Below, in pieces: positions 38,546-54,407 of a DNA stretch of 64,000 bases. The stretch is from Terriglobia bacterium (GTDB taxonomy: Bacteria; Acidobacteriota; Terriglobia; Terriglobales; Acidobacteriaceae), in assembly GCA_020073215.1 (NCBI GenBank), contig JAIQFO010000007.1:1-64000 (forward strand), given 5' to 3'. Position 1 is the stretch's first letter. Each line of letters starts with the position of its first letter. The notes under the pieces are model-generated. The model was not told the DNA's origin, made no database searches, and saw only the letters and a list, made by a program, of their open reading frames with translations. The translations under genes and the position numbers were made by a program.

Positions 38546-38961
38546 TGAATCCTGCCTTTCTATTGCCTGCAGTTCCCTATCTTAAGTTTCCTGGGGTGCC
38601 CTCCGCCACCACCCGAAAAGACGTAGATCTGGTTTCAAAACAATAATGAGTGAGGTATGGGCTCTTCCCGGGGGTGGGGTTGTGTCATCGCTAGGGGTCG
38701 ATCGAAAAGTAGACTCTACCCAGTGCCGGGTAGCGCAGGCCAGATCCGAAACGCCAGAAAGTCGTCCCGCTCCAACCCAGCGCTTGATAATATGACCTGG
38801 TAGACAAACTACTTCTTGGACGAGAGTAATTGGCGGGATGCCGCTGCGGCCAACTGGTATTGCCTTCGTGACCCTCATCACGAGCTCCTGTACCGAAGGT
38901 CATAGCTGTGGAGACTGCAGGCATTGAAACTGAATGTTTGGATTGAGGACGGGAGAACGCC
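38546..38961. other. Divergent intergenic region, xfp and RsbRD-like gene
   Basis: 416 bp without a convincing ORF. It contains the CRP-type site at 38867-38882 and presumably both promoters, but no strong -35/-10 pair was picked out. Minus-strand ORFs here lack codon bias and a start signal. Confidence 0.5.
38867..38882. promoter_or_regulatory. CRP-type palindrome CGTGACCCTCATCACG
   Basis: GTGA-N6-TCAC is conserved; the outermost bases are C and G and still pair. It lies 80 bp before the ATG at 38962 and 322 bp before the xfp start. Confidence 0.4.
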
Positions 38962-39435
38962 ATGTCGATGATGTTATATCGTCTCGTTCGGATGATCGAG
39001 ACCCGATCCCAAGAGCTGGCCGCTTCCCTTCTTGATAAAGTCCAGAATTCGCGGTTTACCCAAAACTACCGTCAGAACGTCCCCCCGGAAGAACTGAAAG
39101 AACGGGTGTACGAGATCTACCGTCATTTGGGGGAATGGCTCATCGGGAAAGACAAGCTCCACCTGGAGCAGCGTTACCTGGAGATCGGGTCGCGGCGGGC
39201 CACTCAGCAGGTGCCCGTGAGCGAGGTGATCTGGGTGATCATTTTGACCAAGGGGAACTTGTGGGACTTCATCCGGAAAGAATCGGTTCTGGAACGCCCC
39301 TCGGAAATGCTCGGTGAGATGGAGATGCTGCAGTTGCTGGAGCAGTTCTTTGATCGAGCCATTTACTATGCCGCGGTCGGTTACGAACTCGCCGAGCAAC
39401 CTCTCAGGGACTCGACCACAACATCCAAGAAGTGA
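38962..39435 (+). CDS. Stand-alone RsbRD N-terminal-like protein
   Basis: A 157-residue soluble, mainly helical protein. The segment around residues 15-110 (QELAASLLDKVQNSRFTQNYRQ, YEIYRHLGEWLIGKD, RRATQQVPVSEVIWVIILTKGNLWDFI) resembles the globin-like N-terminal sensor domain of RsbRD and some histidine kinases. No STAS or kinase domain follows, so it may be a free-standing sensor or antagonist. The start has GGGAG upstream. It lies next to the CRP/FNR regulator (convergent) and has a CRP-type site 80 bp upstream. Function unknown. Confidence 0.55.
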   Translation: MSMMLYRLVRMIETRSQELAASLLDKVQNSRFTQNYRQNVPPEELKERVYEIYRHLGEWLIGKDKLHLEQRYLEIGSRRATQQVPVSEVIWVIILTKGNLWDFIRKESVLERPSEMLGEMEMLQLLEQFFDRAIYYAAVGYELAEQPLRDSTTTSKK

Positions 39436-39499
39436 GATGGGCCTCGGAACGGGATGTTCCGGGCGCTGGCTTGGAGCGCTGGAGTTTCACCACAGGTGG

Positions 39500-40213
39500 T
39501 CAGGAGTTGACCATATCTTCCAGGGCGGCTTTGTTGCGGATGATCAGGTTAGCGCCCTTGAATTGCACCAGTTGTTTCCTCTTGAACTGCGAGAGCAGGC
39601 GGCTGACAGTTTCCCGCGTCGTGCCAATGATTTCGGCGATTTCCTCATGCGTCAGCGTCAGCTTCACCTGCAGAGGATCCCCATTGCCAGCTGCATTGGA
39701 CCATCCCAGCAGTAATTTTGCGAATCTCTCGGACGGGGAGTTGGTAAGACCCAGTGTGCGGATCCCTTCATACGCGGTGTAGTAATTGCGGCTTAATTCC
39801 TCCGCCACGCGCAGAGCCACGATTCCGTGCTCGCGCAAGAAGTGCATCAAGGCATCCCGGGTAATGAAATTTGCCTGGCCGGGCTCGATCATCTCGGCGG
39901 TCACTTCGTAAGGCCGATTGGAAATCGTGGCGCTGAGCCCGAGAACATCTCCCGGCTCGGAGATTCTGGTGATGACGGTCCTGCCCTCCGACGACGACGT
40001 CGAGAGCTTTGCTTTCCCCGCGCAGAGCACGAATACGCCGCGCGGCTGCTGTCCCTCAATAAACAACATCGCGGATTTTGGATAGACTGCGGTGGATTTG
40101 ATCTCGTTCAGCCTCTGCAGCGCGGCTTCTGGCAGATGGCAAAACAAATGTTCCTCACGCATCGGGCAGGCAAGGCAATTGTCGAGGATGTTCAGCCCGT
40201 AGGGCGCACGCAT
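39500..40213 (-). CDS. CRP/FNR-family regulator with N-terminal cysteine cluster
   Basis: A 237-residue regulator. N-terminal Cys13-x2-Cys16-x8-Cys25 plus Cys64 could ligate a redox-sensitive Fe-S cluster as in FNR, although the spacing differs from E. coli FNR. The cyclic-nucleotide-binding-like fold covers about 28-145, and the dimer helix about 150-175. The helix-turn-helix has LTHEEIAEIIGTTRETVSRLL. The recognition helix has Arg-Glu-x3-Arg as in CRP, with Ser as in FNR (ETVSR), which fits reading of TGTGA half-sites. A perfect TGTGA-N6-TCACA box lies 41 bp before its own ATG and further boxes precede ferredoxin-linked genes. Probably an oxygen- or redox-responsive global regulator. Confidence 0.88.
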   Translation of the reverse strand: MRAPYGLNILDNCLACPMREEHLFCHLPEAALQRLNEIKSTAVYPKSAMLFIEGQQPRGVFVLCAGKAKLSTSSSEGRTVITRISEPGDVLGLSATISNRPYEVTAEMIEPGQANFITRDALMHFLREHGIVALRVAEELSRNYYTAYEGIRTLGLTNSPSERFAKLLLGWSNAAGNGDPLQVKLTLTHEEIAEIIGTTRETVSRLLSQFKRKQLVQFKGANLIIRNKAALEDMVNS

Positions 40214-40253
40214 TCGCCACCGCTCTCCGCGAAAATTGTATCACCGATCCCGC

Positions 40254-40269
40254 TGTGATCAGGATCACA
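40254..40269. promoter_or_regulatory. CRP-type palindrome TGTGATCAGGATCACA
   Basis: An exact TGTGA-N6-TCACA site between the regulator gene and the divergent OsmC gene. The short distance to the regulator ATG (41 bp) suggests negative autoregulation. Confidence 0.65.
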
Positions 40270-40421
40270 AAAAACCGTGACTGCGAACATGGCCGCCAAA
40301 ACCTTATGCGAGGAGACTCTAGACACCACGGGAGGCTAGGGGCGGCTGTACCGAGGGCGGGGTTGTCCAAGAGCACCGCAACCGCTGCCGGTGCGACGCC
40401 GGATCGAGGAGGGTTAACACC

Positions 40422-40919
40422 ATGACTACTGAAGAAGCACTTCGGTTTCGGGTCATTGCCTGGTGGGCCTCTGGCCGGACCGGCATTGCAAGGTCCAGTT
40501 CCGCGCCCAATGCGATCCATTTCACCTCCCCGCCGGCTTTTGGCGGCCTGGAAGGCAGGTGGACCCCGGAGGACTTGCTGCTGTGCGCGGTCGCCAGTTG
40601 CTATACCACTACCTTTCGCACCCTTGCGGACAATTCCAAGCTTGCCTACACCGACCTGCAGGTGGAAGTGGAAAGCGCCATTGCCAAGCGTGATACCGGA
40701 TATACTTTTGGCGAAGTGCTGATTCGCGCCTATCTGATGATTCCGGAGGAAGAGGAACGGGACCGGGCCATCCGGCTCTTGCACAAGGCCAAAGATAAGT
40801 GCCTGGTCTCTCGCGCTCTCTCGGTCGAACAGATCTTTGAACCCCGCGTGCAAGTGGGTGAAGTACGGGCGGAAGTCGGCCAGCCTCTGCCAGTCTCCGG
40901 CAAAGAAGGCTTCCGATGA
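40422..40919 (+). CDS. OsmC/Ohr-family peroxiredoxin-like protein
   Basis: A 165-residue OsmC-fold protein. The paired redox cysteines are Cys60 (CAVASCYTT) and Cys127 (KDKCLVSRAL), matching the peroxidatic and resolving pair of organic-hydroperoxide reductases. The Arg/Glu network is not assigned. It probably reduces organic hydroperoxides with a dithiol donor in the cytoplasm. The ATG at 40422 follows GGAGGG. It is divergent from the CRP/FNR regulator and shares its CRP-type site, consistent with redox control. Confidence 0.88.
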   Translation: MTTEEALRFRVIAWWASGRTGIARSSSAPNAIHFTSPPAFGGLEGRWTPEDLLLCAVASCYTTTFRTLADNSKLAYTDLQVEVESAIAKRDTGYTFGEVLIRAYLMIPEEEERDRAIRLLHKAKDKCLVSRALSVEQIFEPRVQVGEVRAEVGQPLPVSGKEGFR

Positions 40920-40962
40920 AGCCTGGGTGCACAACGGTTGTCCTGCTGGTCAGAGCTGACGA

Positions 40963-43758
40963 ATGACACCGATAAGTTCCACCGACGCTGATCTCATGGG
41001 ACGCTCGCCGAATACCAGTGCTGTAGAGAAACAGACACTTAATGCTGTAGAGAAACTGACACTCCGGGAAAGATACAGCCTGGACGCGATGTTCGATCCC
41101 AGTTCGGTGGCCGTCATCGGCGCGACCAGTCGTCCCGGCACGGTCGGTCGAACCGTTCTCGAAAACCTGCTCCGCGGCGGCTCGCGAAGGAAGGTGTACG
41201 CCGTCAACGCGAAGCATCCGGAGGTGCTCGGGCTCAAGAGTTACCCCAGCATTGGCGCGGTTCCCGCACCGGTAGACTTGGCTGTAATTACCACTCCGGC
41301 AGTGACCGTCCCGCAGTTGGTCGCAGAGTGCATCGATGCCGGCGTCCGATATGCGATCGTGATTTCTGCAGGTTTCCGGGAGCGCGGTGCGGAAGGCGCC
41401 GCCCTCGAACAACAAATTCAAAAGAACCTGCGGCGCAGTTCCATGCGCCTGATTGGTCCCAACTGCCTGGGCATTATGAACCCGGCCGTCGGATTGAATT
41501 CCACGTTCGTAAAGGATCCGCCCAAGGCGGGCAATGTCGCGTTCCTGAGCCAGAGTGGAGCGCTTCAGGTCGCGATCCTCGATTGGAGCGCTCGCGAACA
41601 AGTTGGATTCAGCTCGATCGTCTCTACCGGGTCGATGCTCGATGTGGGTTGGGGTGATTTGCTCGACCACTTTGGCGACGACCCTAACACCAAGAGCATC
41701 CTGATCTACATGGAATCCGTGGGAAACGCCCGGACGTTCTTGTCGGCTGCCCGCGAAGTCGCCCTTACCAAGCCGATCATCGTGATCAAAGCCGGCCGCT
41801 CGGAAGCGGCCTCACGCGCCGCGGCATCGCACACCGGCGCGCTCACGGGCAGCGACGAAGTGCTCGATGCGGCCTTCCACCGTTCCGGAGTCTTGCGGGT
41901 ACACAATATCGCGGACCTGTTCTACATGGCGGAAGTGCTCAGCAAGCAGCCCCGTCCCAAGGGCCCGCGGCTTACCATCCTGACCAACGCCGGCGGTCCC
42001 GGCGTTCTGGCGACGGACTCTCTGGTGGCCAACGGTGGAGAACTGGCCCAGCTTTCCCCGGAGAGTCTGCAACAACTCAATGAGTTCCTCCCTCCCCACT
42101 GGAGTCATAGCAATCCCATTGATGTTCTAGCCGATACCGATTCCGAGCGCTTTGCCCGCGCCTTTGACATCGCTTTGCGCGACCCGAACAGCGATGGACT
42201 CCTGGTGATCCTTGTCCCGCAAGCCATGGCCGATCCTTTGCAGGTGGCAGAAAGCTTGAAGCCTTATGCCAAAGGCTATGGCAAGCCGGTGCTCGCCAGT
42301 TGGATGGGGGGAAACAGCGTTGCCGCCGGCGAAGCCGTCCTGAACGCCGCCGGCATTCCAACCTTCCCTTATCCGGACACCGCTGCGCGAGCGTTCACCC
42401 ACATGTGGCGCTACACCTGCAACCTGCGCGGCCTTTACGAAACACCTACTCTCACCGACCAATCGGAACTGGCGAACGCAGCCCGCAATCAAGTCGAGCA
42501 AATTATTCAGAATGTACGGGAGCAAGGCCGCGTTCTGCTCACCGAACTGGAATCGAAGCAGTTGTTGTCGCTCTACGGCATCCCCACGGTTGAGACCCGC
42601 GCTGCCACCTCCGAGGACGAAGCGGTCGCGCTCGCGTCCGAACTTGGCTTTCCGGTTGTACTCAAAGTCCTTTCCCAAACCATCACCCACAAAACGGACG
42701 TCGGCGGCGTCCAACTGAACCTGCAAGATGAAGCGGCGGTCCGCTCTGCCTTTCGTGCCATCGAGTCTTCGGTTGCGGAAAAAGCCGGCCCCGGCCAGTT
42801 CTCCGGCGTAACCGTGCAGCCGATGGTGAAGATCGATGGCTACGAATTAATTCTCGGCAGCAGCGTAGACCCGCAATTTGGGCCCGTCATCCTGTTCGGC
42901 TCCGGCGGCCAGTTGGTCGAAGTCTATCGTGACCGCGCCCTGGCTCTTCCCCCACTGAACACGACCTTGGCACAAAGAATGATGGAGCAGACCCGCATCT
43001 TCACCGCGCTGAAGGGAGTCCGTGGACGCAAGCCCGTCAACCTGGTGGCTCTTGAGAACTTGTTAATCCGCTTCAGCCAGCTCGTGCTCGAGCAGCGCTG
43101 GATTGCGGAAATTGACATCAATCCCCTGCTCGCTTCACCGGATCGCCTGCTGGCCCTCGACGCCAGAGTCGTGTTGCATGGGCCCGCCGTGACCCTCGAC
43201 CGGCTACCTAAGCCCGCCATTCGTCCCTACCCCTTGCAGTACGTCTCTCCCTGGACCATGAATGATGGGAATCAGGTTACCATCCGCCCCATCCGCCCCG
43301 AGGACGAACCGCTGATCGCGAAGTTTCACGAGACGCTTTCCGATCGCAGCGTCTATTTGCGCTACTTCTGTTCGCTCAGCCTCAGCAGGCGTGTGGCTCA
43401 CGAGCGACTCTTACGCATCTGTTTCGGCGATTATGACCGCGAAATGGCGCTGGTCGCCGAACACACCGATCCCGCCAACGGCGAGCGCAGGATTCTTGGC
43501 GTAGGCCGCATGAACAAGCTTCATGGCAGGAATGAAGCCGAAGTCGCGGCCCTCGTTTCCGATCGCTATCAAAAGATGGGCTTGGGACATGAATTACTCC
43601 GCCGTGTCGTCCAGATTGCCCGGGATGAGAAGTTAAGCCTGGTGTCGGCCGAGATGTTGCCCGATAACGTCGCCATGCAGGCCGTCTTCAGGCGCCTGGG
43701 TTTTCGCATCCGCGCCGATGAAGACCTGACTTCGCTGCGTGCCACCCTGGAACTCTAA
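40963..43758 (+). CDS. ADP-forming acetate-CoA ligase fused to GNAT acetyltransferase
   Basis: A 931-residue protein. A CoA-binding Rossmann domain (about 45-180: [16 protein letters not shown]) is followed by a succinyl-CoA-ligase-like domain with the phospho-His motif ASHTGALTG (His290), an ATP-grasp domain (about 500-720: [35 protein letters not shown]) and a C-terminal GNAT domain (about 770-925, acetyl-CoA loop [10 protein letters not shown]). The ligase part interconverts acetyl-CoA, ADP and phosphate with acetate and ATP. The fused form resembles Pat/YfiQ lysine acetyltransferases, where the ligase part is often inactive. The retained His suggests it may be active here. No strong ribosome binding site is seen at 40963. 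Confidence 0.88.
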
Positions 43759-43796
43759 AGGTTTACGCGACTGGAGCGGCGTCGCGGAAGGCAAGG

Positions 43797-43858
43797 CCTT
43801 TAGCTTTTAGCTCTTAGCCTTTGGCTTTTCTTGGCTAAGAGCTAACAGCTAAGAGCGG
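43797..43858. repeat. AGCTTTTAGC-word imperfect palindrome, second copy
   Basis: CTTTAGCTTTTAGCTCTTAG is followed by the complementary GGCTAAGAGCTAACAGCTAAG, with a GCGGTTTTT tail. It is similar to 7503-7562 and could act as a terminator for the ligase gene. Confidence 0.6.
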
Positions 43859-43867
43859 TTTTTCCTT

Positions 43868-43883
43868 TGTGACCTGCATCACA
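43868..43883. promoter_or_regulatory. CRP-type palindrome TGTGACCTGCATCACA
   Basis: An exact TGTGA-N6-TCACA site 108 bp before the start of the pyruvate:ferredoxin oxidoreductase gene. Confidence 0.65.
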
Positions 43884-43991
43884 GGTCCCCGTGAGCGATG
43901 TTCCCGACAAGACTGCTCCGTTGCGGCATCCTTGTAGCTGACCATTCCAGGGGTCCGGCAGAATCACCGAGAAATCCAGAAAGGGATGTCA

Positions 43992-46900
43992 ATGAAACGT
44001 AAGTTTAAGACCATGGACGGCAACGAAGCCGTCGCCAATGTCGCCTACCGCCTCAACGAGGTCATCGCCATTTATCCCATCACGCCGTCGTCCAACATGG
44101 GCGAATGGGCGGATCAATGGATGTCGGAGGGCGTCCCCAATATCTGGGGAACCGTGCCCCACGTGATTGAAATGCAAAGCGAAGGCGGCGCTTCCGGGGC
44201 GGTTCATGGCGCGCTGCAGACCGGAGCCCTGGCCACCACCTTCACCGCGTCGCAAGGCCTGTTGCTGATGATCCCGAACATGAACAAGATCGCCGGCGAA
44301 CTTACGGCCACGGTTTTTCATGTCAGCGCCCGCACCGTGGCCACCCACGCCCTCTCGATTTTCGGCGACCACTCCGATGTAATGCACTGCCGCACCACCG
44401 GATTCGGCCTGCTCGCGTCGAACTCCGTTCAAGAGGCCATGGACCTGGCCCTCATCACCCATGCGGCGACTCTCGAAGCCCGCATCCCCTTCGTCCATTT
44501 CTTCGACGGCTTCCGTACCTCGCATGAAGTCAACAAAATCGAGATGCTCACCGAAGACGACATGCATGCCCTCATCAACATGGATCGTGTCTTCGAGCAC
44601 CGGCAGCGAGCGCTTTCTCCTGATCATCCCGTGTTGCGCGGTAGCGCCCAGAATCCCGACGTTTTCTTTCAGGCCCGTGAGGCCGGCAATCCTTACTACG
44701 ACGCCTGCCCCGATAAGGTCCAGGCGGTTATGGACAAGTTCTCCCAGGTCGTCGGCCGTTCCTATCATCTCTTCGACTACGTGGGCGCACCCGACGCTGA
44801 GCGTGTAATCGTCATGATGGGTTCGGGCGCGGAGGCCGCCCACGAGACGGTCGAGTATCTGAATCGCCAGGGCGAAAAGGTTGGCCTGCTGAAAGTCCGT
44901 CTGTACCGCCCGTTCTCCGTCCGGCGATTCCTTGAGGCCCTGCCCGCAACCGTGCGCAAGATCGCCGTTCTGGATCGTACGAAGGAAGCCGGAGCTGGCC
45001 GAGAGCCCCTCTGCCTTGACGTAGTCAGTGCGCTTCAGGAAGGAATCAAGCTAGGCTACGGAACCCTCAAGACCGCCCCCGAAGTCATCGGCGGACGCTA
45101 CGGCCTCTCCTCCAAAGAATTCTCAGCCACCATGGTCAAAGGCGTTTACGACAACCTGGCCGCGCCCAAGCCAAAGGATCACTTCACCGTCGGCATTCGG
45201 GACGACGTGGGCCATACCAGCCTCGATTACGATGCCGATTTTTCCGTCGAGCCCGACAGCGTCGTGCGCGCCATGTTCTACGGCCTGGGCGCCGATGGCA
45301 CCGTGGGCGCGAACAAGAACTCCATCAAAATCATCGGCGAAAACACCGACAACTACGGACAGGGCTACTTCGTCTATGACTCCAAGAAGTCAGGCGCGAT
45401 GACCGTCTCCCACCTCCGCTTCGGCCCGCAACCGATTCGCTCCAGCTACCTGATTTCGAAGGCCAACTTTATCGCCTGCCATCAGTGGATTTTCCTCGAA
45501 CGCTACGACATGCTCAGCGCCCTGGTTCCGGGCGGCGTTTTCCTGCTCAACAGTCCGTTCAGCAAAGACGAAGTTTGGGACCAGTTGCCGCGCGAAGTCC
45601 AGCAGCAACTGATCGCCAAGAAGGCCCGTTTCTTCATCATCGACGCCTACCAGGTGGCCCGCGAAACCGGCATGGGTTCGCGCATGAACACCATTCTGCA
45701 GACCTGCTTCTTTGCCATTTCCAAAGTCCTGCCCCGTGAACAAGCCATCGAAGCCATTCGCCAGTCCATCCGCGACACCTACGGCAAGAAGGGCGATGAG
45801 ATCGTGCAGCAAAACCTGCGTGCCGTGGATGAAACCCTGGCCCACATGTTCGAAGTCGCCGTTCCGGAAAAGGTGACCAGCCAAATTGAAATACCCCCCG
45901 CGTTCTCTCCACAGGCGCCCAAGTTTGAGCGCGATGTGCTCAGCGTGATCTACGCTGGCCACGGCGACGATATACCTGTGAGCGCTTTCCCCGTCGATGG
46001 AACCTATCCTACCGGGACCGCGAAATGGGAGAAGCGCAACATCGCGCTTGAGATTCCCGTGTGGGATACGAAACTCTGTATCCAGTGCGGCAAGTGCGCC
46101 ATGGTTTGCCCCCACGCCGTGCTCCGCATCAAGGTCTACGATGGCAAGCAACTGGAAGGCGCGCCCGCAAGCTTCAAGTCCACCGAAGTGCGCGACAAGG
46201 AATGGCAGGGCTTAAAGTACAGCATTCAGGTTGCACCCGAAGACTGCACAGGATGCGGTATTTGCTTCGACATCTGTCCCGCCAAGAACAAGAGCGAGAC
46301 GCGCCTGAAAGCGATCAACATGATGGCGCAGCCCCCCCTGCGCGTGCCCGAGCGCGAGAACTGGGAATTCTTCCTTAAAATTCCCGAACTCGATCGCCGC
46401 AAGATCAAAGTCTCGAATATCCGCCAGCAACAGGTGCAAGAGCCGCTATTCGAATTTTCAGGAGCGTGTTCCGGCTGCGGCGAGACGCCCTATCTGAAGC
46501 TGCTCACCCAGCTCTTTGGAGATCGTTCCGTAGTCGCCAACGCCACCGGCTGCTCCTCGATTTACGGCGGGAATCTGCCAACCACGCCTTGGGCTAAGAA
46601 TATCGAAGGCCGCGGACCGGCATGGTCGAATTCCCTGTTTGAAGACAATGCCGAGTTCGGCCTGGGATTCAGGCTCTCCATTGACAAGCAGACCGAATTC
46701 GCTCAGCAGTTGGTGCAGCGTTTAGCGGGCAAGATTGGGGAAGAGCTCGCTGCCGCTCTGATCACCAGCCCGCAGAAGGACGAGGCCGACATTTTCGAAC
46801 AGCGCCAACGAGTCGAACTTCTAAAGGAAAAGTTGCATCGTCTTAGCTCCCCGGAGGCCAGGCAACTGCTTTCCCTCGCCGACATGCTGGTGAAAAAGAG

Positions 46901-47585
46901 CGTGTGGATCGTAGGCGGCGACGGCTGGGCCTACGACATCGGCTACGGAGGTCTGGACCACGTGCTGGCCAGCGGCCGCAACGTGAACCTGCTGGTGCTC
47001 GACACCGAGGTCTATTCGAACACCGGAGGGCAAGCCTCGAAAGCCACGCCCAGGGCGGCCGTGGCGAAGTTCGCCGCCGGCGGTAAACCGGGGACCAAGA
47101 AAGACCTGGGCCTGATGGCCATGAGCTATGGCTACGTCTATGTGGCCAGTGTCGCCATGGGCGCCAAAGACGAACACACGCTCAAGGCCTTTCTCGAAGC
47201 GGAGGCCTATGACGGCCCCAGCATCATCATTGCCTACTCCCACTGCATCGCGCACGGCATCGACATGACCACGGCCATGTCCGACCAGAAAGTCGCGGTC
47301 GACTCCGGCCAGTGGCTGCTCTATCGCTATAACCCTGAGCGCGCTCTCGCCGGTGAGAACCCGCTCACCCTCGATTGCCGCACCCCCAGCCGCAAAGTCA
47401 AGGACTACTTCCTGCAGCAGACGCGCTTCAAGATGCTGCTGAAAAGTAAGCCCGAAGACGCGAAGCGGCTCTGGGAAGAGGCGCAGCACGATGCGGAGAC
47501 TCGTTATCGTCTGTACGAATACATGGCACAGCGCAAACCAGCCCCGGCCGCGGTTCCAGCCGGTACTGTGGAAACGAAGAAATAA
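43992..47585 (+). CDS. nifJ: Pyruvate:ferredoxin (flavodoxin) oxidoreductase, single chain
   Basis: A 1197-residue homodimeric PFOR that oxidises pyruvate with CoA to acetyl-CoA, CO2 and reduced ferredoxin. The domains run in the usual order: pyruvate-binding N-terminus (IAIYPITPSSNMGEW), domain II, and the gamma-like domain III (YFVYDSKKSGAMTVSHLRFG). An 8Fe ferredoxin domain has CIQCGKCAMVCP near 695 and [12 protein letters not shown] near 751. The TPP domain has the proximal-cluster Cys in CSGCGETPYLKLL near 825 and GGDGWAYDIGYGG. The ATG at 43992 is preferred because AAAGGG abuts the alternative ATG at 43986. Oxygen sensitivity is expected, which fits the CRP/FNR-type site upstream. Confidence 0.96.
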   Translation: MKRKFKTMDGNEAVANVAYRLNEVIAIYPITPSSNMGEWADQWMSEGVPNIWGTVPHVIEMQSEGGASGAVHGALQTGALATTFTASQGLLLMIPNMNKIAGELTATVFHVSARTVATHALSIFGDHSDVMHCRTTGFGLLASNSVQEAMDLALITHAATLEARIPFVHFFDGFRTSHEVNKIEMLTEDDMHALINMDRVFEHRQRALSPDHPVLRGSAQNPDVFFQAREAGNPYYDACPDKVQAVMDKFSQVVGRSYHLFDYVGAPDAERVIVMMGSGAEAAHETVEYLNRQGEKVGLLKVRLYRPFSVRRFLEALPATVRKIAVLDRTKEAGAGREPLCLDVVSALQEGIKLGYGTLKTAPEVIGGRYGLSSKEFSATMVKGVYDNLAAPKPKDHFTVGIRDDVGHTSLDYDADFSVEPDSVVRAMFYGLGADGTVGANKNSIKIIGENTDNYGQGYFVYDSKKSGAMTVSHLRFGPQPIRSSYLISKANFIACHQWIFLERYDMLSALVPGGVFLLNSPFSKDEVWDQLPREVQQQLIAKKARFFIIDAYQVARETGMGSRMNTILQTCFFAISKVLPREQAIEAIRQSIRDTYGKKGDEIVQQNLRAVDETLAHMFEVAVPEKVTSQIEIPPAFSPQAPKFERDVLSVIYAGHGDDIPVSAFPVDGTYPTGTAKWEKRNIALEIPVWDTKLCIQCGKCAMVCPHAVLRIKVYDGKQLEGAPASFKSTEVRDKEWQGLKYSIQVAPEDCTGCGICFDICPAKNKSETRLKAINMMAQPPLRVPERENWEFFLKIPELDRRKIKVSNIRQQQVQEPLFEFSGACSGCGETPYLKLLTQLFGDRSVVANATGCSSIYGGNLPTTPWAKNIEGRGPAWSNSLFEDNAEFGLGFRLSIDKQTEFAQQLVQRLAGKIGEELAAALITSPQKDEADIFEQRQRVELLKEKLHRLSSPEARQLLSLADMLVKKSVWIVGGDGWAYDIGYGGLDHVLASGRNVNLLVLDTEVYSNTGGQASKATPRAAVAKFAAGGKPGTKKDLGLMAMSYGYVYVASVAMGAKDEHTLKAFLEAEAYDGPSIIIAYSHCIAHGIDMTTAMSDQKVAVDSGQWLLYRYNPERALAGENPLTLDCRTPSRKVKDYFLQQTRFKMLLKSKPEDAKRLWEEAQHDAETRYRLYEYMAQRKPAPAAVPAGTVETKK

Positions 47586-47600
47586 ATCGCAGCCTTCGTA

Positions 47601-47622
47601 GAGACGGGGCTCGCCCCGTCTC
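47601..47622. repeat. Hairpin repeat, family C, copy 3
   Basis: Arms GAGACGGGGC and GCCCCGTCTC with a 2-nt loop. CGCAGCC upstream and GGCTGCG downstream extend the stem. Confidence 0.8.
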
Positions 47623-47661
47623 GGCTGCGGAAATACTCAGGTTCTCGACTTTGTTTTGTAG

Positions 47662-47681
47662 GGCACGGCTTCCGCCGTGCC
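47662..47681. repeat. Small hairpin GGCACGGC/GCCGTGCC
   Basis: Eight-base arms with loop TTCC. It shares the GGCAC/GTGCC edges with the hairpin at 19003-19022. Confidence 0.6.
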
Positions 47682-47769
47682 ATAAGGGTTATAAGCGGGC
47701 TCTGGCTTTATTAGCCGCTGAGGGCACGAACGATGCACCCTCACGAGGCCCGCGCGAAAGAGGAACGTA

Positions 47770-48774
47770 ATGGACCTAACCACGAACTATCTCGGCATGA
47801 AGCTGCGGACGCCGCTGGTCGCCTCCGCATCCCCGCTCTCCCAGGAAATCGCCGGTATCCGCAGCCTCGAAGATGCCGGCGCCTCCGCCGTCGTGCTCTA
47901 CTCCCTGTTCGAGGAGCAACTGCACAAGGAGGCCCTCGATCTTGAACTGCATCTCAGCGCCGGCACCGAGAGCTTTGCCGAGTCGCTGACCTATTTTCCT
48001 CACTCCAGCGAGTTTCACACCGGACCCGAAGGCTATCTCGATCACATTCGCAAGGCCAAAGCGGCGGTCAAGATTCCAATCATCGCCAGCCTCAACGGTT
48101 TGACCTTGGGCGGCTGGACCAAGTTTGCCAAGCAGATTGAACAAGCCGGAGCCGACGCCATCGAGTGCAATCTCTACTTCATTCCCACCAACATGGATCT
48201 TTCGGGCGCCGAGACCGAGAAGATCTATACCGATATTCTCCGGGAAGTAAAGGCTGCGGTGCACATCCCGGTGGCCGTCAAGCTGAGTCCGTTCTTCAGC
48301 AACTTGGCCCACGTGGCCAGGCAGTTCGACCAACTGGGCGCGGACGGTCTGGTACTGTTCAACCGCTTCTACCAGCCCGACATCGACCTCGACGAATTAG
48401 AGATCATCCCCAACGTGCTTCTCAGCACGCCGCAGGCGTTGCGCCTGCCTCTGACGTGGATCGGCATTCTTCACGGCCGGATCAAGGCCAGCCTGGCGGC
48501 AACCAGCGGTGTGCACGGCCCCGAAGACGCCATCAAGCTGCTCATGGTGGGCGCCGATGTAACCATGATGTGCTCAGCTCTGGTGCGCAATGGAATCGGC
48601 CATCTGCGTCATGTGGAACAAGGCATCAAAGAGTGGATGGAGGCTCACGAATACGAGTCTGTGCAACAGATGCAAGGCAGCATGAGCCAGCTCCGCTGCC
48701 CCGATCCAGGAGCCTTCGAGCGCGCCCAATACATGCGAGCCGTCAAGGGTCTGCAGCACGTGCGTCAGGCATGA
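47770..48774 (+). CDS. Dihydroorotate-dehydrogenase-like flavoprotein
   Basis: A 334-residue TIM-barrel of the DHOD/PreA superfamily. Features are the N-terminal LGMKLRTPLVASASPLS, FMN-contacting PIIASLNG, ECNLYFIP in the active-site strand, the Lys in VAVKLSPF, and the C-terminal phosphate-binding SGVHGPEDAIKLLMVGADVTMMCSAL. The usual catalytic Ser/Cys loop of true DHODs is altered (CNLYFIPTN). It is probably an FMN oxidoreductase tied to ferredoxin or NAD(P)H rather than pyrimidine synthesis. It lies between nifJ and the NfnA/NfnB-like genes, which suggests a partner for those electron carriers. Confidence 0.82.
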   Translation: MDLTTNYLGMKLRTPLVASASPLSQEIAGIRSLEDAGASAVVLYSLFEEQLHKEALDLELHLSAGTESFAESLTYFPHSSEFHTGPEGYLDHIRKAKAAVKIPIIASLNGLTLGGWTKFAKQIEQAGADAIECNLYFIPTNMDLSGAETEKIYTDILREVKAAVHIPVAVKLSPFFSNLAHVARQFDQLGADGLVLFNRFYQPDIDLDELEIIPNVLLSTPQALRLPLTWIGILHGRIKASLAATSGVHGPEDAIKLLMVGADVTMMCSALVRNGIGHLRHVEQGIKEWMEAHEYESVQQMQGSMSQLRCPDPGAFERAQYMRAVKGLQHVRQA

Positions 48775-48779
48775 TGAGG

Positions 48780-48958
48780 GCTGTCAGCTGTCAGCTGTCA
48801 GCTATCAGCTATCAGTTTTCGACTTTCAGACCTGAGCAACTGGTGGTGAAGGCCGATCTTCGACTCCTAACCTTACAATTCGTAAGGTTCATGTTTGTCA
48901 AAGCAGGGAGCCAAAAGCCAACAACTGAAAGCGGATGGCTAACGGCTGACAGCTGAAA
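48780..48958. repeat. TCAGCTG/TCAGCTA word repeats with distant inverse copies
   Basis: Five near-direct repeats of the 7-base word lie at 48781-48816. A complementary-type run with AGCCAAAAGCC and GGCTGACAGCTGAAA lies at 48908-48958. The words resemble the AGCTTTTAGC elements at 7503 and 43797. Confidence 0.55.
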
Positions 48959-48980
48959 TGTGATCTTACTCTCCCTCACC

Positions 48981-48996
48981 CGTGACGCATGTCACA
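48981..48996. promoter_or_regulatory. CRP-type palindrome CGTGACGCATGTCACA
   Basis: Nine of ten half-site bases match TGTGA-N6-TCACA. It lies 54 bp before the ATG of the NfnA-like gene. Confidence 0.5.
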
Positions 48997-49050
48997 GCCG
49001 CTTGCCCGCGCATTCCGGACAATGGTCTGTAACTCAAGCCGTGGGGAGAC

Positions 49051-49944
49051 ATGTTCAAGATACAACACGCGGAGTTCCTTGCGCCCGGCATCAAGCGGTT
49101 CATCATCGAGGCGCCACGCATTGCACATAAGCACAAGGCGGGCCAGTTCGTAATCCTGCGGCTGAACGAACATGGCGAGCGCATTCCGATCACCATCGAG
49201 CACTCCGATCCCGCCACCGGCACGATTCGCATTGTGGTGCAGGCGGTCGGCAAAACCACCCATCAGCTCAATTCCCTGCAGACCGGCGATGGCATCCTCG
49301 ATGTGGTTGGGCCGCTGGGGAAACCATCGGAAATCGAGAAGTACGGCACCGTAGTCGTGATGGGCGGAGGCGTGGGCACGGCGGTGGCGTACCCGACGGC
49401 GGCGGCACTGAAGCGCGCCGGCAATCGCGTAATTTCCATCTTTGGAGCGCGCACCAAAGAGCTGGTCATTATGGAAAGAGAACTGCGCGAAGTCAGCGAT
49501 GCGCTGATGATTACGACCGATGACGGAAGCTATGCCGACAAGGGCTTCGTCACCGACAAGCTGCGGCAGTTAATCGACAACGGCACGCGCATTGACCTGG
49601 TCCTGGCCGTAGGTCCCATCCCCATGATGAGGGCGGTAGCGGAGATGACGCGCAAAGAGCGCATCCGCACCATCGTCAGCCTGAATCCGATCATGATCGA
49701 CGGCACCGGTATGTGTGGCGGCTGCCGCGTGCTGATAGACGGCAAGAGCGAGTTCGCCTGCGTGGACGGCCCCGAGTTCGATGCCCACCGTGTGGATTTC
49801 GCGGTGCTGGTCCAGCGCAACTCGATGTACCGGGCAGCCGAGCAGAGAGCGATGGAAGAGTACCTGCGCGCAACTCAGCCGCAACTCGATACCGTTCAGG
49901 CCGGACAAACCGGTGCCTGCGCGGTGCAAGGAGACGGCCGGTGA
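49051..49944 (+). CDS. nfnA: NfnA-like ferredoxin-NADP reductase alpha subunit (SudB type)
   Basis: A 297-residue FNR-like subunit. The FAD/beta-barrel domain (about 1-100) has AGQFVILRLNEHGERIPITIE, the NAD(P)-binding domain has VVVMGGGVGTAVAYPTAAAL and FGARTKELV, and a [2Fe-2S] motif DGTGMCGGCRVL pairs with Cys in FACVDGPEFD. In Thermotoga and Clostridium the NfnAB pair bifurcates electrons between NADPH, NAD+ and ferredoxin. Annotation pipelines also call this family sulfide dehydrogenase or DHOD electron-transfer subunit. The TGA overlaps the next gene's GTG start, indicating a coupled pair. The position after PFOR suggests that it recycles reduced ferredoxin. Confidence 0.85.
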   Translation: MFKIQHAEFLAPGIKRFIIEAPRIAHKHKAGQFVILRLNEHGERIPITIEHSDPATGTIRIVVQAVGKTTHQLNSLQTGDGILDVVGPLGKPSEIEKYGTVVVMGGGVGTAVAYPTAAALKRAGNRVISIFGARTKELVIMERELREVSDALMITTDDGSYADKGFVTDKLRQLIDNGTRIDLVLAVGPIPMMRAVAEMTRKERIRTIVSLNPIMIDGTGMCGGCRVLIDGKSEFACVDGPEFDAHRVDFAVLVQRNSMYRAAEQRAMEEYLRATQPQLDTVQAGQTGACAVQGDGR

Positions 49945-51410
49945 CGGAACAAACGAAACAGCCGCCTAAACAGAAGTCGGCGAATCCCCTCCCCCTGAAA
50001 GAGCGAATGAAAGTGCCCCGGCAGCACATGTTGGAGCAGCCTGCATTCGAGCGCGCCACTAATTTCACCGAAGTGAACCTCGGCTATTCCGAGGAACTGG
50101 CGCGGCGCGAAGCTGCGCGTTGCCTGGAGTGCGCTAAGCCAGTATGCATGGTTGACTGTCCGGTGGGCGTCAAGGTGAAAGAGTTCGTGCAAATGATCGT
50201 GGCCGGCGACTTCCTGGGTGCGGCGGCCAAGATCCGTGAAGATAACGTCCTCCCCGCCATCACCGGCCGCGTGTGCCCGCAAGAGGATCACTGCGAAGGC
50301 GGCTGCTTGATGGGCAAGAAGGTTGAGCCGCTGGGCATTGGATACCTCGAGCGCTTCGTCGCCGACTATGAACAGCGCCACCTCGACATCAGTAACCTGC
50401 CCAAGGCGACGCCGACCGGGAAGAAAGTCGCCATCGTGGGCAGCGGCCCTTCGGGCCTAACCGCGGCGGGCGATCTCGTCCAGAAGGGCCACCAGGTGCA
50501 CGTTTTTGAGGCCTTGCACGAGATCGGCGGCGTGCTCGTGTACGGCATTCCGGAGTTCCGCCTGCCGAAGGGGATCATCCGTCAGCAAGTCGACTACATG
50601 CGCGCCATGGGCGTGGAATTTGAGACCGACGTAGTCGTGGGACGCACCGTCACCATCGACGAACTGATGAACGAGGAAGGCTACGACGCCGTGTTCATCG
50701 GCACCGGCGCGGGGTTGCCGCAGTTCATGGGCATTCCCGGCGAACATCTGAATGGCGTCTATTCGGCGAACGAATTCTTGACCCGCATCAACCTGATGCA
50801 TGCCTACGAGTTTCCCAGGTACGACGAGCCCATGCTGGATTTCCGCGGCAAGAATGTGGCTGTGATCGGTGGCGGCAACACTGCGCTCGATGCGATCCGG
50901 TCGGCGAAGCGACTGGGAGCGGGGCATGCCTTCATTCTCTATCGCCGCAGCGAGGCCGAGATGCCGGCGCGCATCGAGGAAGTAAAGCACGCCAAGCAGG
51001 AAGGCATTGAATTCCAGGTGCTTGCCGCTCCGCTCGAGTTCCTCGACGACGGCAAGGGTTGGCTGGCCGGTGCGCGCTGCCAGAAGATGGCCCTGGGCGA
51101 ACCGGATGCTTCTGGGAGACGGCGGCCGGTTCCGATCGAAGGCTCCGAATACGAAATTCCTCTGGCCGTGGCGGTAATCGCGATCGGGACCAGCGCCAAT
51201 CCAATCGTCCAAAGCACCACACCGGGTTTAAACACGAATAAGCGTAATTACATCGAAGCGGATCCCACGACCCAGCGCACCTCGCGCAAAGGAGTTTTCG
51301 CCGGCGGCGACATCGTCACCGGAAGTGCGACGGTGATTCTGGCCATGGGCGCGGGGCGCCGCGCCGCGAAGTCGATTCATGAATATCTGACCACCGAGGG
51401 CACCTGGTAA
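49941..51410 (+). CDS. nfnB: NfnB-like NADPH-binding subunit (GltD-type flavoprotein)
   Basis: A 489-residue GltD-like subunit. An N-terminal Fe-S domain has cysteines in AARCLECAKPVCMVDCPVGV and CPQEDHCEGGCLMG, followed by FAD-binding KVAIVGSGPSGLTAAGDL near 160, NADPH-binding VAVIGGGNTALDAIRSAKRLG near 300, and a C-terminal FAGGDIVTGSATVILAMGAGR. The start is GTG at 49941, with AAGGAGA upstream and GTGA overlap with the alpha gene; a longer open frame is a shadow. Without a nearby gltB large subunit, the NfnB role is preferred over glutamate synthase small subunit. Confidence 0.88.
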   Translation: MTEQTKQPPKQKSANPLPLKERMKVPRQHMLEQPAFERATNFTEVNLGYSEELARREAARCLECAKPVCMVDCPVGVKVKEFVQMIVAGDFLGAAAKIREDNVLPAITGRVCPQEDHCEGGCLMGKKVEPLGIGYLERFVADYEQRHLDISNLPKATPTGKKVAIVGSGPSGLTAAGDLVQKGHQVHVFEALHEIGGVLVYGIPEFRLPKGIIRQQVDYMRAMGVEFETDVVVGRTVTIDELMNEEGYDAVFIGTGAGLPQFMGIPGEHLNGVYSANEFLTRINLMHAYEFPRYDEPMLDFRGKNVAVIGGGNTALDAIRSAKRLGAGHAFILYRRSEAEMPARIEEVKHAKQEGIEFQVLAAPLEFLDDGKGWLAGARCQKMALGEPDASGRRRPVPIEGSEYEIPLAVAVIAIGTSANPIVQSTTPGLNTNKRNYIEADPTTQRTSRKGVFAGGDIVTGSATVILAMGAGRRAAKSIHEYLTTEGTW

Positions 51411-51447
51411 GAGCTTGATTTGTAGGAGCTTAAGCTATAGGAGCTGA

Positions 51448-51463
51448 TGTGACGCACCTCACC
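51448..51463. promoter_or_regulatory. CRP-type site TGTGACGCACCTCACC
   Basis: Nine of ten half-site bases match TGTGA-N6-TCACA. It lies 159 bp before the acetyl-CoA hydrolase/transferase ATG and 38 bp after the NfnB stop. Confidence 0.35.
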
Positions 51464-51621
51464 ATGCCGGTTGCGCAAGGTCACGGCCCGAGCGCTGGAG
51501 AAGGTTTCCAATCAAAAGTGGTAGCGTGTGCGTGGACCACAGGGCGAAGGGGTTGCTCCTTGGGGGGACGTCCGGTACGGACTTGGCTGGGTCTGGGCAA
51601 AACAGACCCGAGGGCAAAAGA

Positions 51622-52980
51622 ATGTCGATGTCGTGGGAACTTGATTACAAGAGCAAGTTGAAAACGGCGGATGAGGCCTTACAGTGCGTGCAATCGGGAA
51701 TGCGGGTCTACATTCAGCCCGGATGCGCCGAACCTGAGACTCTGGTCGAGGCGCTGATGCGCCGCGGTCCCTTTGTGCAGGACGTGCAAGTGGTTCACAT
51801 GTTGACCATGGGAGCGGCCCCTTATGTCGCGCCCGAGATGGCGGGGCATTTCCGGCATAACGCGGTATTCATTGGCGCCAATGTGCGCGAGGCCATCAAC
51901 GAAGGGCGGGCCGACTACACCCCTATCTACCTCAGTGAGATTGAAAACCTGTTCGAGAGCGGCGCCATGCCGCTCGATGTGGCCTTGCTCGAACTCTCTC
52001 CTCCGGATTCGCACGGCTTCTGCAGCTTCGGGGTGGGCGTGGACACGTCGCTCACAGCAGCCAAATGTGCCAAACACGTGGTGGCGCAGATCAACGATCA
52101 AATGCCGCGCACTTACGGAGACAGCTTTATCCATGTGACCGATCTTGATGCCCTTGTAGATTCCTCTCGTCCACTGTGTCCCATGAAGCAGCCGCAAATC
52201 ACCGACATGCACCGGGCTATCGCCAGCAACGTTGCGGGGTTGATTGAGGACGGAGCGGTGCTGCAGACAGGTATCGGGGGAATTCCGGATGCAGTGCTGC
52301 CCATGCTCATGGATCGAAAAGATCTCGCCGTGCACAGCGAACTGGTTTCCGATGGCGTGATTCCTCTGATCGAAGCGGGCGTGCTTACGGGTGCGCGCAA
52401 GAACTTCAAACCGCGGAAAATTATTCTGGGATTTGCTCTGGGCTCGAAACATTTGTTCAATTTTCTGGACAACAACCCGATTTTCGAATTCCACCCCACG
52501 TCCTACACCAACGATCCCGGATTGATTGCCCGCAACGACAACATGGTGGCAATTAACTCGGCGTTACAGGTCGATCTCACGGGCCAAGTCTGTTCCGATT
52601 CGATTGGAAACCAGTTCTATAGCGGCATTGGCGGACAGGTGGATTTCATTCGCGGAGCCTCGCGGTCGAAGGGCGGTAAACCGATCATTGCTATCTCCTC
52701 GACGGCCAAGAATGGTGCGATTTCGCGGATTGTGCCCATGCTGAGCCCAGGCGCGGGCGTGGTGACTTCGCGCGGGCTGATTCGTTACGTGGTGACCGAA
52801 TTCGGCGTGGCGTATCTGCACGGCAAGACCATCCGGGAACGCGCGCAGGCGCTCATAGAAATTGCAGACCCCAAGTTTCGGGAAGAGCTTTACGAATACT
52901 GCGAGAAATCGAGATGGCTGCAGCGGCCTGTGGTCGCGGCTGACGCTGGTTACCAGATTCAGCCAGTACACAGCCTCTAG
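51622..52980 (+). CDS. Acetyl-CoA hydrolase/CoA-transferase (Cat1/4-hydroxybutyrate CoA-transferase family)
   Basis: A 452-residue two-domain CoA-transferase. Motifs include GMRVYIQPGCAEPETLVEAL at the N-terminus, GIGGIPDAVLPML, the probable catalytic Glu in HSELVSDGVIPLIE, the oxyanion region GQVCSDSIGNQFYSGIGGQVDFIRGA, and the C-terminal TEFGVAYLHGKTIRERAQALI. It transfers CoA between acetyl-CoA and another acid (succinate, butyrate) or hydrolyses it. The ATG at 51622 starts the homologous region; a frame from 51526 adds 32 unlikely residues. Together with PFOR, xfp-ackA and the ADP-forming ligase this is a fourth route touching acetate in one locus. Confidence 0.9.
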   Translation: MSMSWELDYKSKLKTADEALQCVQSGMRVYIQPGCAEPETLVEALMRRGPFVQDVQVVHMLTMGAAPYVAPEMAGHFRHNAVFIGANVREAINEGRADYTPIYLSEIENLFESGAMPLDVALLELSPPDSHGFCSFGVGVDTSLTAAKCAKHVVAQINDQMPRTYGDSFIHVTDLDALVDSSRPLCPMKQPQITDMHRAIASNVAGLIEDGAVLQTGIGGIPDAVLPMLMDRKDLAVHSELVSDGVIPLIEAGVLTGARKNFKPRKIILGFALGSKHLFNFLDNNPIFEFHPTSYTNDPGLIARNDNMVAINSALQVDLTGQVCSDSIGNQFYSGIGGQVDFIRGASRSKGGKPIIAISSTAKNGAISRIVPMLSPGAGVVTSRGLIRYVVTEFGVAYLHGKTIRERAQALIEIADPKFREELYEYCEKSRWLQRPVVAADAGYQIQPVHSL

Positions 52981-53038: not shown

Positions 53039-53317
53039 ATGGCAGTCCAACCGCGCGGTAAGGTCACGATCGAAACCGAAGAATGCAAGGGATGTGGGCT
53101 CTGCGTAGAGTCTTGTCCACCCAAGTGCCTCGAACTGACCACCGAGCTGAACGTTTACGGGGCGCATCCCGTGCGCTACACCGGCACCGGTTGCACCGGT
53201 TGCGGCATCTGCTTTTATTGCTGCCCGGAGCCGGGCGCGATCACCGTGTACCGCATCAAGGCGAAAGCCAAGGCGCTGGCGCCAGCGCAAGGAGGCGAAC
53301 TTGCGGCAGCTTTGTAA
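53039..53317 (+). CDS. 2-oxoacid:ferredoxin oxidoreductase delta subunit (2x[4Fe-4S] ferredoxin)
   Basis: A 92-residue ferredoxin with two CxxCxxCxxxCP motifs: [15 protein letters not shown] and [15 protein letters not shown]. It passes electrons from the catalytic beta subunit to external ferredoxin. It starts the KorD-A-BC operon, with an AGGTG-type ribosome binding site before the ATG. The last 17 bases overlap the alpha-subunit start. The upstream gap to the CoA-transferase is 58 bp, so that gene may be in the same operon. Confidence 0.9.
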
Positions 53318-54365
53318 AGGCAACGTGGCGGTGGTAAAGGGTGCGATCCTCGCCGGGTGTCGTGCGTACTACGGATATCCGATCACTCCGGCCAGCGAAA
53401 TCGCCGAGTCCGCGGCGCTCTACTTCCCACAGGTCGGCGGCACTTTTCTGCAGGCGGAGAGCGAAGTCGCCGCCATCAACATGGTCTATGGCGCCGCCGC
53501 AGCCGGGGTCCGCGTCATGAGCGGATCCTCCGGGCCCGGCCTCAGCCTGATGCAGGAAGGCATGTCGTACCTGGCCGGCTCGGAACTGCCCTGCGTCATC
53601 GTGGATGTTGTGCGCGGCGGACCGGGCCTCGGCAACATCGCGCCGGAACAAAGCGATTATTTCGCCATGGTGAAAGGCGGCGGCCATGGCAACTATCGCA
53701 ATCTCGTGCTCGCTCCCGCCTCGGTGCAGGAAATGGCTGACCTGACCATGCTGGCCTTCGATCTCGCCGACAAATACCGTAATCCCGCAGTCGTGCTGAC
53801 CGACGGTTTCGTCGGGCAAATGATGGAGCCGCTCGATCTCGAAGTTCCAGATAAAGATCGTGAGATGGAACTGCCTGAGAAACCCTGGGCGGTAAAGGGC
53901 ACCCCGGAAACGCGGGCCAACCTGCTTAGCTCCATCTATCTCGAGACCGATGAATTGGAAGAACACCAGCGCCGCATGGAAGCCAAGTACATCCGCGCGC
54001 AAGAAGCCGAGCAGCGCTCGGAACTCTGCCACACCGACGACGCCGAGGTGCTGCTGGTCGGTTACGGGATTGTGTCTCGAGTGTTGCTTTCCACGGTCGA
54101 AGCGCTGCGCAAGGAAGGCGTGAAGGCAGGGCTGTTCCGCCCCATCACTCTGTGGCCCTATCCCAAGAAAGCTCTGGTGGAAGCGGCGGCGAGGGTGCAA
54201 AAGGTGCTGGTTGTCGAATTAAGCAACGGACAGATGGTGGAAGATGTGCGCCTGGCGCTGAATAACAAGGTGCCGGTGGAGTTCTACGGGCGGGTCGGTG
54301 GCAACGTGCCCTCGGTCGCCGAGTTGCGACAACAAGTGTTGACCCGCATGCCGGTAGCGGTCTGA
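53301..54365 (+). CDS. 2-oxoacid:ferredoxin oxidoreductase alpha subunit (VorB/KorA type)
   Basis: A 354-residue subunit that binds the 2-oxoacid. The N-terminus reads [30 protein letters not shown], followed by [32 protein letters not shown] and a C-terminal domain with [12 protein letters not shown]. It starts with TTG at 53301, which has a perfect AAGGAGG seven bases upstream and overlaps the ferredoxin gene by 17 bases. No ATG alternative precedes the conserved start. Together with the delta and fused beta-gamma subunits it forms a complete enzyme for 2-oxoglutarate or branched-chain oxoacids. The substrate cannot be fixed from sequence alone. Confidence 0.92.
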
Positions 54366-54407
54366 GACCAGGTCGGGCAAGGATCTGGCCCCAGGAGGAC
54401 AACGAAA

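Follow-up and report, generated by a model that had tools for sequence, protein, structure and literature searches.

A contig of a Terriglobia bacterium (assembly GCA_020073215.1, JAIQFO010000007.1), whose first 64,000 nucleotides are called the window below, carries the gene of a CRP/FNR-family regulator, P0001, close to nifJ and to several copies of the palindrome TGTGA-N6-TCACA. The palindromes are real and, judged from their distribution, behave as binding sites, that is, as predicted operators. They probably serve as operators for FNR-like CRP/FNR regulators that form a small family in Acidobacteriota; the local member, P0001, most likely binds the sites of the window and would work as proposed below. 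The regulon that emerges, predicted from sequence, is genuine and conserved; its likely regulator is of a known kind and carries an unusual sensor signature. The first-pass annotation of the window had listed five palindromes and ascribed them to one redox-sensing regulator of ferredoxin-linked pyruvate and acetate metabolism. A pattern scan of the window found all five (Table 1).

Excess and promoter position of the palindromes

The whole-genome scan suggested by the first-pass annotation was run on the organism's own genome (5.62 Mb in 111 contigs, 98 % complete, 5.65 % contamination). The motif occurs 164 times with up to one mismatch, against 44 occurrences of the reversed-pattern control, and 23 matches are exact. 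The form TGTGAYN4RTCACA was found 15 times versus 0 for the control and the one-sided variant TGTGAYN4RTCACB 48 times versus 1; summed across 81 genomes, there were 533 sites versus 10 for the reversed pattern. The 23 exact matches and the 48 matches to TGTGAYN4RTCACB were combined into a set of 71 sites, 4 in the window and 67 (20 exact, 47 near) outside it. According to a simple custom gene caller 63 of the latter 67 fall in no called gene, and 60 of these 63 have a gene start at most 350 bp downstream.

The spacing of the sites to promoter elements was tested on 60 of the 63 intergenic sites outside the window, each with its nearest gene alone, against 2000 shuffles. A -10-like hexamer stands at exactly offset 37 in 16 of the 60 (24 at offsets 36-38; shuffle mean 0.97, largest 6), which puts the site centre at -41.5, the position of a class II activator. 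A further half-site TGTGA (4 of 5 bases) follows at +22 in 17 of the 60 (shuffle mean 0.88, largest 6).

That the palindromes are chance or structural repeats is suggested by the window taken alone, where 17 matches with up to two mismatches were counted versus 19.9 expected and 80 of 100 shuffles reached that count, i.e. there was no excess. Against this stand the genome-wide excess, the intergenic placing, the fixed spacing to -10-like elements and the conservation before orthologues with varying spacers (see below), so that the idea was rejected, its probability being negligible. A third exact palindrome, absent from the first-pass list, lies at 10453..10468 (+), approximately 115-140 bp upstream of the gene of a 1268-aa BNR-repeat protein (start uncertain) without evident redox link.

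In the window the layout of the promoters would depend on the gene. At nfnA the single site would act from -41.5, the class II activator position; in L078 and L105 CAGAAT and AACAAT were found by eye at offset 37. Three further promoters, those of nifJ, the rsbRD-like gene and the CoA-transferase gene, show in their sequence a strong site near -63.5 and a degenerate one 22 bp further on, near -41.5. When nifJ upstreams are aligned on the palindrome, the third half-site TGTGA (at least 4 of 5 bases) stands exactly at +22 in all 21 rows, and CATNNT at offset 59 in 15 rows, at 60 in 4 and not at all in 2. For the rsbRD-like gene 12 of 13 distinct upstreams, the window included, have the second site (TGTACC...GTCAT) at 22 bp with 5 to 8 of the 10 half-site bases; in L066 it is shifted.

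The regulator gene has another layout. Of 63 distinct regulator upstreams 41 have TACAAT no more than 40 bp 3' of the site; in 36 of these 41 it starts 26 to 32 bases after the start of the site, and it never stands at 37. Since the palindrome thus covers the -35 region at a varying distance, the regulator's own promoter should be repressed, and this arrangement suggests autorepression. In 17 of 62 upstreams with a site the palindrome lies at least 140 bp before the start codon.

Table 1. Coordinates of regulator, predicted sites, promoter elements and genes in the window
Feature	Coordinates	Strand	Remarks
CRP/FNR-family regulator P0001	39500..40213	-	237 aa; C13, C16, C25, C64; helix R200-E201-TVS-R205
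Palindrome CGTGACCCTCATCACG	38867..38882	+	2 mismatches, halves mutually mirrored; before rsbRD-like gene
Second, degenerate site TGTACCGAAGGTCATA	38889..38904	+	22 bp downstream of first rsbRD-like site
GAAACT, weak -10-like	38926..38931	+	rsbRD-like promoter; offset 59 from first site; by eye
rsbRD-like small protein	38962..39435	+	157 aa; no Pfam or NCBIfam match; name from first-pass annotation
TACAAT, -10-like (extended, TGaTACAAT)	40235..40240	-	regulator promoter; 13 bp past palindrome
Exact palindrome TGTGATCAGGATCACA	40254..40269		lies between the genes of regulator and OsmC; candidate operator for autoregulation (repression)
OsmC-like protein	40422..40919	+	shares 40254 site; at most a possible target
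ADP-forming acetate-CoA ligase-like protein	40963..43758	+	C-terminal GNAT acetyltransferase domain; no own site
Exact palindrome TGTGACCTGCATCACA	43868..43883	+	before nifJ
Second, degenerate site beginning CGTGA	43890..43905	+	22 bp after first nifJ site
CATCCT, -10-like	43927..43932	+	nifJ promoter; offset 59
nifJ, pyruvate:ferredoxin (flavodoxin) oxidoreductase	43986..47585	+	TIGR02176, 1849 bits
Dihydroorotate dehydrogenase-like protein	47770..48774	+	PRK07565; no own site
Palindrome CGTGACGCATGTCACA	48981..48996	+	1 mismatch; before NfnA; up to 1 mismatch also in L053, L078, L105
GACAAT, -10-like	49018..49023	+	nfnA promoter, single site; offset 37, site centre -41.5
NfnA-like FAD/NAD-binding protein	49051..49944	+	PRK06222
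NfnB/GltA-like flavoprotein	49713..51410	+	TIGR01316; likely start 49941
Palindrome TGTGACGCACCTCACC	51448..51463	+	1 mismatch; before CoA-transferase; also in L053
Second, degenerate site GTTGCGCAAGGTCACG	51470..51485	+	22 bp after first CoA-transferase site; by eye
TCCAAT, -10-like	51507..51512	+	CoA-transferase promoter; offset 59; by eye
Acetyl-CoA hydrolase/CoA-transferase family protein	51526..52980	+	own site at 51448
Ferredoxin, 2-oxoacid:ferredoxin oxidoreductase alpha, beta-gamma fusion	53039..55949	+	no own site in the window

Conservation before orthologues and content of the regulon

Conservation was followed in cluster neighbours, in a set of 80 loci (the best 80 of 386 relatives of the regulator, named records) and in genomes with nifJ, sets that share some genomes. 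Nearly all of the 80 loci come from metagenome-assembled genomes (MAGs) labelled Acidobacteria or Terriglobia, with one bearing an Ignavibacteria label, and they include Candidatus Sulfotelmatobacter, Candidatus Acidiferrum, Candidatus Korobacter, an Acidipila and peat and soil MAGs. Genomes of the same genus and the same family often keep the cluster of regulator, OsmC, acetate-CoA ligase, nifJ and dihydroorotate dehydrogenase (DHOD)-like genes, and several relatives have the rsbRD-like gene and the CoA-transferase gene on its other side.

The comparison of orthologous upstream regions, also proposed in the first-pass annotation, demonstrated that the sites are conserved while their 6-bp spacers vary. 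Within the 80-locus set the palindrome precedes nifJ in 12 of 13 cases, all 12 exact, nfnA in 2 of 2 and, with up to one mismatch, the rsbRD-like gene in 10 of 10 orthologues. The regulator's own upstream has it in 54 of 78 loci at up to one mismatch and in 70 of 78 at up to two, against 0.4 and 7.7 %, respectively, of shuffled upstreams; for regulators of at least 66 % identity it was present (up to two mismatches) in 62 of 63 distinct upstreams. OsmC orthologues have sites (up to one mismatch) in 11 of 31 cases, the 40254 site being common to OsmC and the regulator. The CoA-transferase site is kept in L053, the nearest relative of the own genome, and was found in 0 of 5 further neighbour loci and, in 250-bp upstreams at up to one mismatch, in 0 of 9 loci of the 80-locus set; in several of the loci without the site the gene stands 3' of the rsbRD-like gene.

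Membership of the regulon is supported for nifJ, the rsbRD-like gene, NfnA, the CoA-transferase and the regulator itself and not supported, as direct targets, for xfp-ackA, acd and the DHOD-like gene; the regulon also extends beyond genes of pyruvate and acetate metabolism. The enrichment that had been predicted near ferredoxin genes was found: 14 of 30 open reading frames (ORFs) with a Fer4_7 match (E up to 0.001) lie within 5 kb of a site. Outside the window this holds for 12 of 28 such ORFs in a zone that makes up 10 % of the genome (P=7e-6), and 6 of the 28 lie within 1 kb, a zone of 2.3 % (P=4e-5).

A Pfam scan was made of 59 site-adjacent proteins, namely the product of the nearest gene within 350 bp and that of a second gene only if within 130 bp. 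Among them were several ferredoxins and polyferredoxins, a malic enzyme-phosphotransacetylase (PTA) fusion, an alcohol dehydrogenase, an isocitrate/isopropylmalate dehydrogenase, a cytochrome c assembly protein, a cbb3-type cytochrome c, a NuoB-type subunit, a di-haem peroxidase, a class III CoA-transferase, an FTR1/FtrD-like iron permease, radical SAM proteins, PAS histidine kinases and two paralogous regulators. Low O2 raises the expression of por, maeA, pta, adhP and further genes in Acidobacterium capsulatum (PMC11636273), which is consistent with the proposed regulon since sites precede nifJ, the malic enzyme-PTA fusion and the alcohol dehydrogenase gene.

The first-pass annotation had assigned the 38867 site to the rsbRD-like gene and xfp. 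Among 7 xfp and 9 ackA orthologues none has a site (up to one mismatch) within 250 bp, and in the window the 38867 site is 329 bp from xfp and the neighbouring promoter elements point to the rsbRD-like gene. As direct targets xfp-ackA were rejected because 6 of 8 xfp upstreams (L060 and L080 being one genome) have no site with up to two mismatches within 450 bp; in L134 an exact site, the rsbRD-side one, lies 351 bp from xfp, besides one with two mismatches, and the xfp gene of L152 has two sites with two mismatches. In L139, L140, L147, L150 and L152, with regulators of 55-57 % identity, ackA-xfp lies ahead of the regulator gene and on the other strand; the regulator has a site (up to two mismatches) 130-163 bp upstream there, and none lies within 450 bp of xfp except the two weak ones of L152.

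In the window-type arrangement acd and the DHOD-like gene were also rejected as direct targets, since neither has its own site at up to one mismatch; the DHOD-like upstreams of the 80-locus set (250 bp) have such a site in 0 of 9 cases. Sites precede acd in 16 of 33 loci of the wider 80-locus set (up to one mismatch), and there they are probably the regulator's own site where both genes are neighbours. The ferredoxin/2-oxoacid:ferredoxin oxidoreductase genes have their own site only in L062 and none in the window, L053 or L078. The rsbRD-like gene has a strongly conserved tandem promoter and matches no Pfam or NCBIfam family.

DNA recognition and proposed sensor cysteines of P0001

P0001 belongs to the CRP/FNR superfamily by its domains (PF00027, 3.4e-14; PF13545, 7.1e-19; PF00325, 9.7e-11) and stays below the cut-off of every NCBIfam named CRP/FNR equivalog (Fnr, FnrL, FixK, FtrB, Crp and others), the best being FtrB with 76 versus 211 bits. 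Its recognition helix has the Arg-Glu-x3-Arg described by the first-pass annotation, as R200, E201 and R205, equivalent in the alignment to R180, E181 and R185 of CRP. These residues, together with the TGTGA half-sites in the base frequencies of 94 footprint sites (up to two mismatches), indicate recognition of the CRP type; in the motif as treated by Rodionov et al. (PMC1274295) R180 pairs with G3 and E181 with A6.

The DNA word and the R-E-x3-R residues are those of CRP and GlxR, and the best PDB sequence matches of the regulator (4cyd, 4byy, 3r6s) are GlxR chains. A cAMP-dependent CRP/GlxR-like protein could use the sites, the neighbouring FNR-like gene being merely a target. Four homologues of the own genome have a GE...R-like pocket (L283, L285, L288, L289), and L287 (C4:186129), about 0.6 kb from an exact site, combines GE...R with R-E but lacks the third R. 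P0001 differs from CRP and GlxR, however, in the absence of the residues of the cAMP phosphate-binding cassette (alignments read by eye). The four homologues with the pocket lack R-E-x3-R, and by eye none of the six R-E-x3-R homologues keeps the whole pocket, L284 retaining E only. A search of the 98 % complete genome for class III adenylate cyclase (PF00211) gave 0 matches, other cyclase classes not being searched for, and the density of sites tracks the presence of the cysteine family (see below). The absence of pocket residues and of a PF00211 match makes the cAMP-dependent reading disfavoured and, in our estimate, very improbable.

P0001 resembles FNR (E. coli FNR, Paracoccus FnrP) in its CRP/FNR domains, the N-terminal CX2C aligned with C20 and C23, the lack of a cAMP pocket, putative targets of anaerobic type and the predicted class II spacing, which is also FNR's own. 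It differs in that R200 goes with TGTGA, whereas the half-site of FNR is TTGAT. The N-terminal cysteine cluster that had been described (C13, C16, C25) was found as CX2CX8C, in contrast to CX2CX5C of E. coli FNR: in the alignment C13 and C16 match C20 and C23, C25 matches F32, C64 matches R72, and N115 occupies the place of FNR C122. The four-cysteine set of FNR is therefore absent, the third cysteine being three positions off and the fourth standing in the R72 column and not at C122. For FnrP the cysteines are given as Cys14, 17, 25 and 113 (PMC4771820).

None of the four cysteines C13, C16, C25 and C64 varies among 45 aligned family members, an alignment that takes in 45 of 81 possible rows. 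A second alignment had 66 rows, in which FNR was joined to 26 members of the family and to 39 homologues from the phylum that are more distant; from the 26-member set L022 and L023 were lost (no BLAST hit) and L037 (unreadable N-terminus), L021 and seven near-copies were left out. Here the four cysteines are complete in 52 of 66 rows. C64 is missing in 13 rows, and in 12 of these one or more of the three N-terminal columns is without cysteine as well, FNR being counted among the 12 because its third cysteine stands elsewhere. The thirteenth, L278 (G083), a distant homologue, has the three N-terminal cysteines and a cysteine in the C122 column instead of C64, as in classical FNR. In L262 C25 alone is lost. 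By a count on the tree, which excludes L268 and L269 (no helix-turn-helix), C64 was lost four times within the family, each time with at least one N-terminal cysteine. Joint loss of C64 and N-terminal cysteines is the pattern expected if C64 were the fourth ligand of one metal site. FNR residues 72-73 and 118-122 may share one surface patch, which the literature searched did not confirm.

In the proposed mechanism C13, C16, C25 and C64 would hold an oxygen-labile [4Fe-4S] cluster when O2 is scarce, and the cluster-loaded dimer would bind TGTGAY-N4-RTCACA through R200, E201 and R205. It would activate nfnA from the single site and nifJ, the rsbRD-like gene and the CoA-transferase gene from the tandem sites, and would repress its own gene. 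The outcome would be a switch to ferredoxin-linked pyruvate, CoA and acetate metabolism, with other iron-sulphur and cytochrome genes. Redox sensing, the type of cluster and the response to oxygen are inferred here. Whether these regulators form a separate class of iron-sulphur oxygen sensors, in which the fourth ligand has moved from the C122 to the R72 position (C64) and is joined to CRP's DNA word, and which, using tandem operators 22 bp apart and repressing itself, is a main regulator of anaerobic genes in part of the Acidobacteriota, we rate as an evenly balanced question.

The same combination of an FNR-like protein and a CRP word is known from HcpR of Desulfovibrio, described with the consensus wTGTGAnnnnnnTCACAw, R180/E181 and ferredoxin-like and energy genes as targets (PMC1274295). 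P0001 shares with it the motif, the FNR-like build, the equivalents of R180/E181 and ferredoxin-like and energy genes as predicted targets, and differs in its target set. From this likeness P0001 might sense NO or nitrite, in the manner of HcpR-type regulators and nitrosative stress, or else thiol redox or zinc, as its cysteines are also compatible with Zn or a disulphide. The local targets are, however, fermentation, ferredoxin and electron-transfer genes. The core targets of HcpR are hcp and frdX; the 59 scanned proteins included several ferredoxins but no hybrid-cluster protein, the product of hcp, a gene for which no genome-wide search was made. A signal other than O2 seems unlikely.

Family members sharing the recognition residues and significance of the predicted regulon

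The genome encodes 13 CRP/FNR homologues, at least six with R-E-x3-R (L282 and L286 are unreadable at the recognition helix), and two of the other five R-E-x3-R homologues, C33 and C106, have sites upstream. The sites might thus be read mainly by a paralogue (e.g. C33, C41, C18 or the Cys-less C106) or by several, with P0001 chiefly controlling itself. Beside the identical recognition residues, the distribution of the nifJ site among genomes is relevant here. It was examined in 30 of 38 nifJ matches, of which one partial and one with 32 bp of upstream were left out, and the palindrome (up to one mismatch) was present in 22 of the 28 readable genomes, own included. Of 12 genomes whose family members do not include an orthologue of P0001, 9 have it, as do 2 of 5 without a strong family member, but it is present in 11 of 11 readable genomes with an orthologue of P0001 (own included); P0001 moreover lies in synteny with the target genes, and its own site is found almost throughout. 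Reading mainly by paralogues appears to us a substantial possibility, yet hardly a likely one. The notion of one regulator is not supported, given the shared recognition residues of at least six of 13 homologues and the 9 of 12 genomes mentioned, and the regulon is probably shared, at least in part, by paralogues with the same residues.

One paralogue clade (C106:60986-61636, i.e. L019, with the relatives L255, L256, L258, L265 and L266) lacks C64 and most of the N-terminal cysteines and keeps the same recognition helix; a palindrome lies 194 bp before its own-genome member. It is possibly an oxygen-blind competitor or a constitutive partner.

Site density goes with the presence of family members. 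The median was 2.41 sites per Mb among the 41 genomes that encode one (E up to 1e-60) versus 0.29 in 40 without, kinship uncorrected, and within family f1 it was 2.45 versus 1.32 for member present versus absent (P=0.001, likewise uncorrected).

Several observations weigh against the reading of the sites as operators bound by P0001. The co-occurrence of site density and regulator family takes no account of genome relatedness, and paralogues are indistinguishable by motif. The nifJ site is kept in G035 and G042, both without a strong family match, and is absent from G038, G063 and G067, genomes with only another member. Many sites precede genes without clear redox link, e.g. those for glycyl-tRNA synthetase beta, DAHP synthase and GTP cyclohydrolase II, and 12 of the 59 scanned proteins have no Pfam family at E up to 1e-6. 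TCACA at +33, the second half of the tandem site, showed no clear enrichment in the spacing test (3 of 60; shuffle mean 0.85, largest 8); among 88 oriented sequences it was enriched (9.1 versus 1.4 %). The -10 positions come from a weight matrix and, at single promoters, from reading by eye, so that the starts are predicted ones. The structure model of the regulator is middling (pLDDT 76.9).

Neither the regulator family nor the regulon was found in the open-access literature searched. Of two papers on expression in Acidobacteria at low O2, the main text of one (PMC11636273) holds no words beginning Crp or Fnr, and words that start with Fnr, regulator or ferredoxin are absent from that of the other (PMC8407424).

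Soil and peat, in which Acidobacteria abound, are habitats with fluctuating oxygen. Now that a candidate regulator, its predicted regulon and a conserved operator can be named, it becomes directly testable how these bacteria control their acetate-forming, ferredoxin-linked metabolism. If C64 is indeed a ligand of the cluster, the family would show a further way of building an FNR-type sensor.

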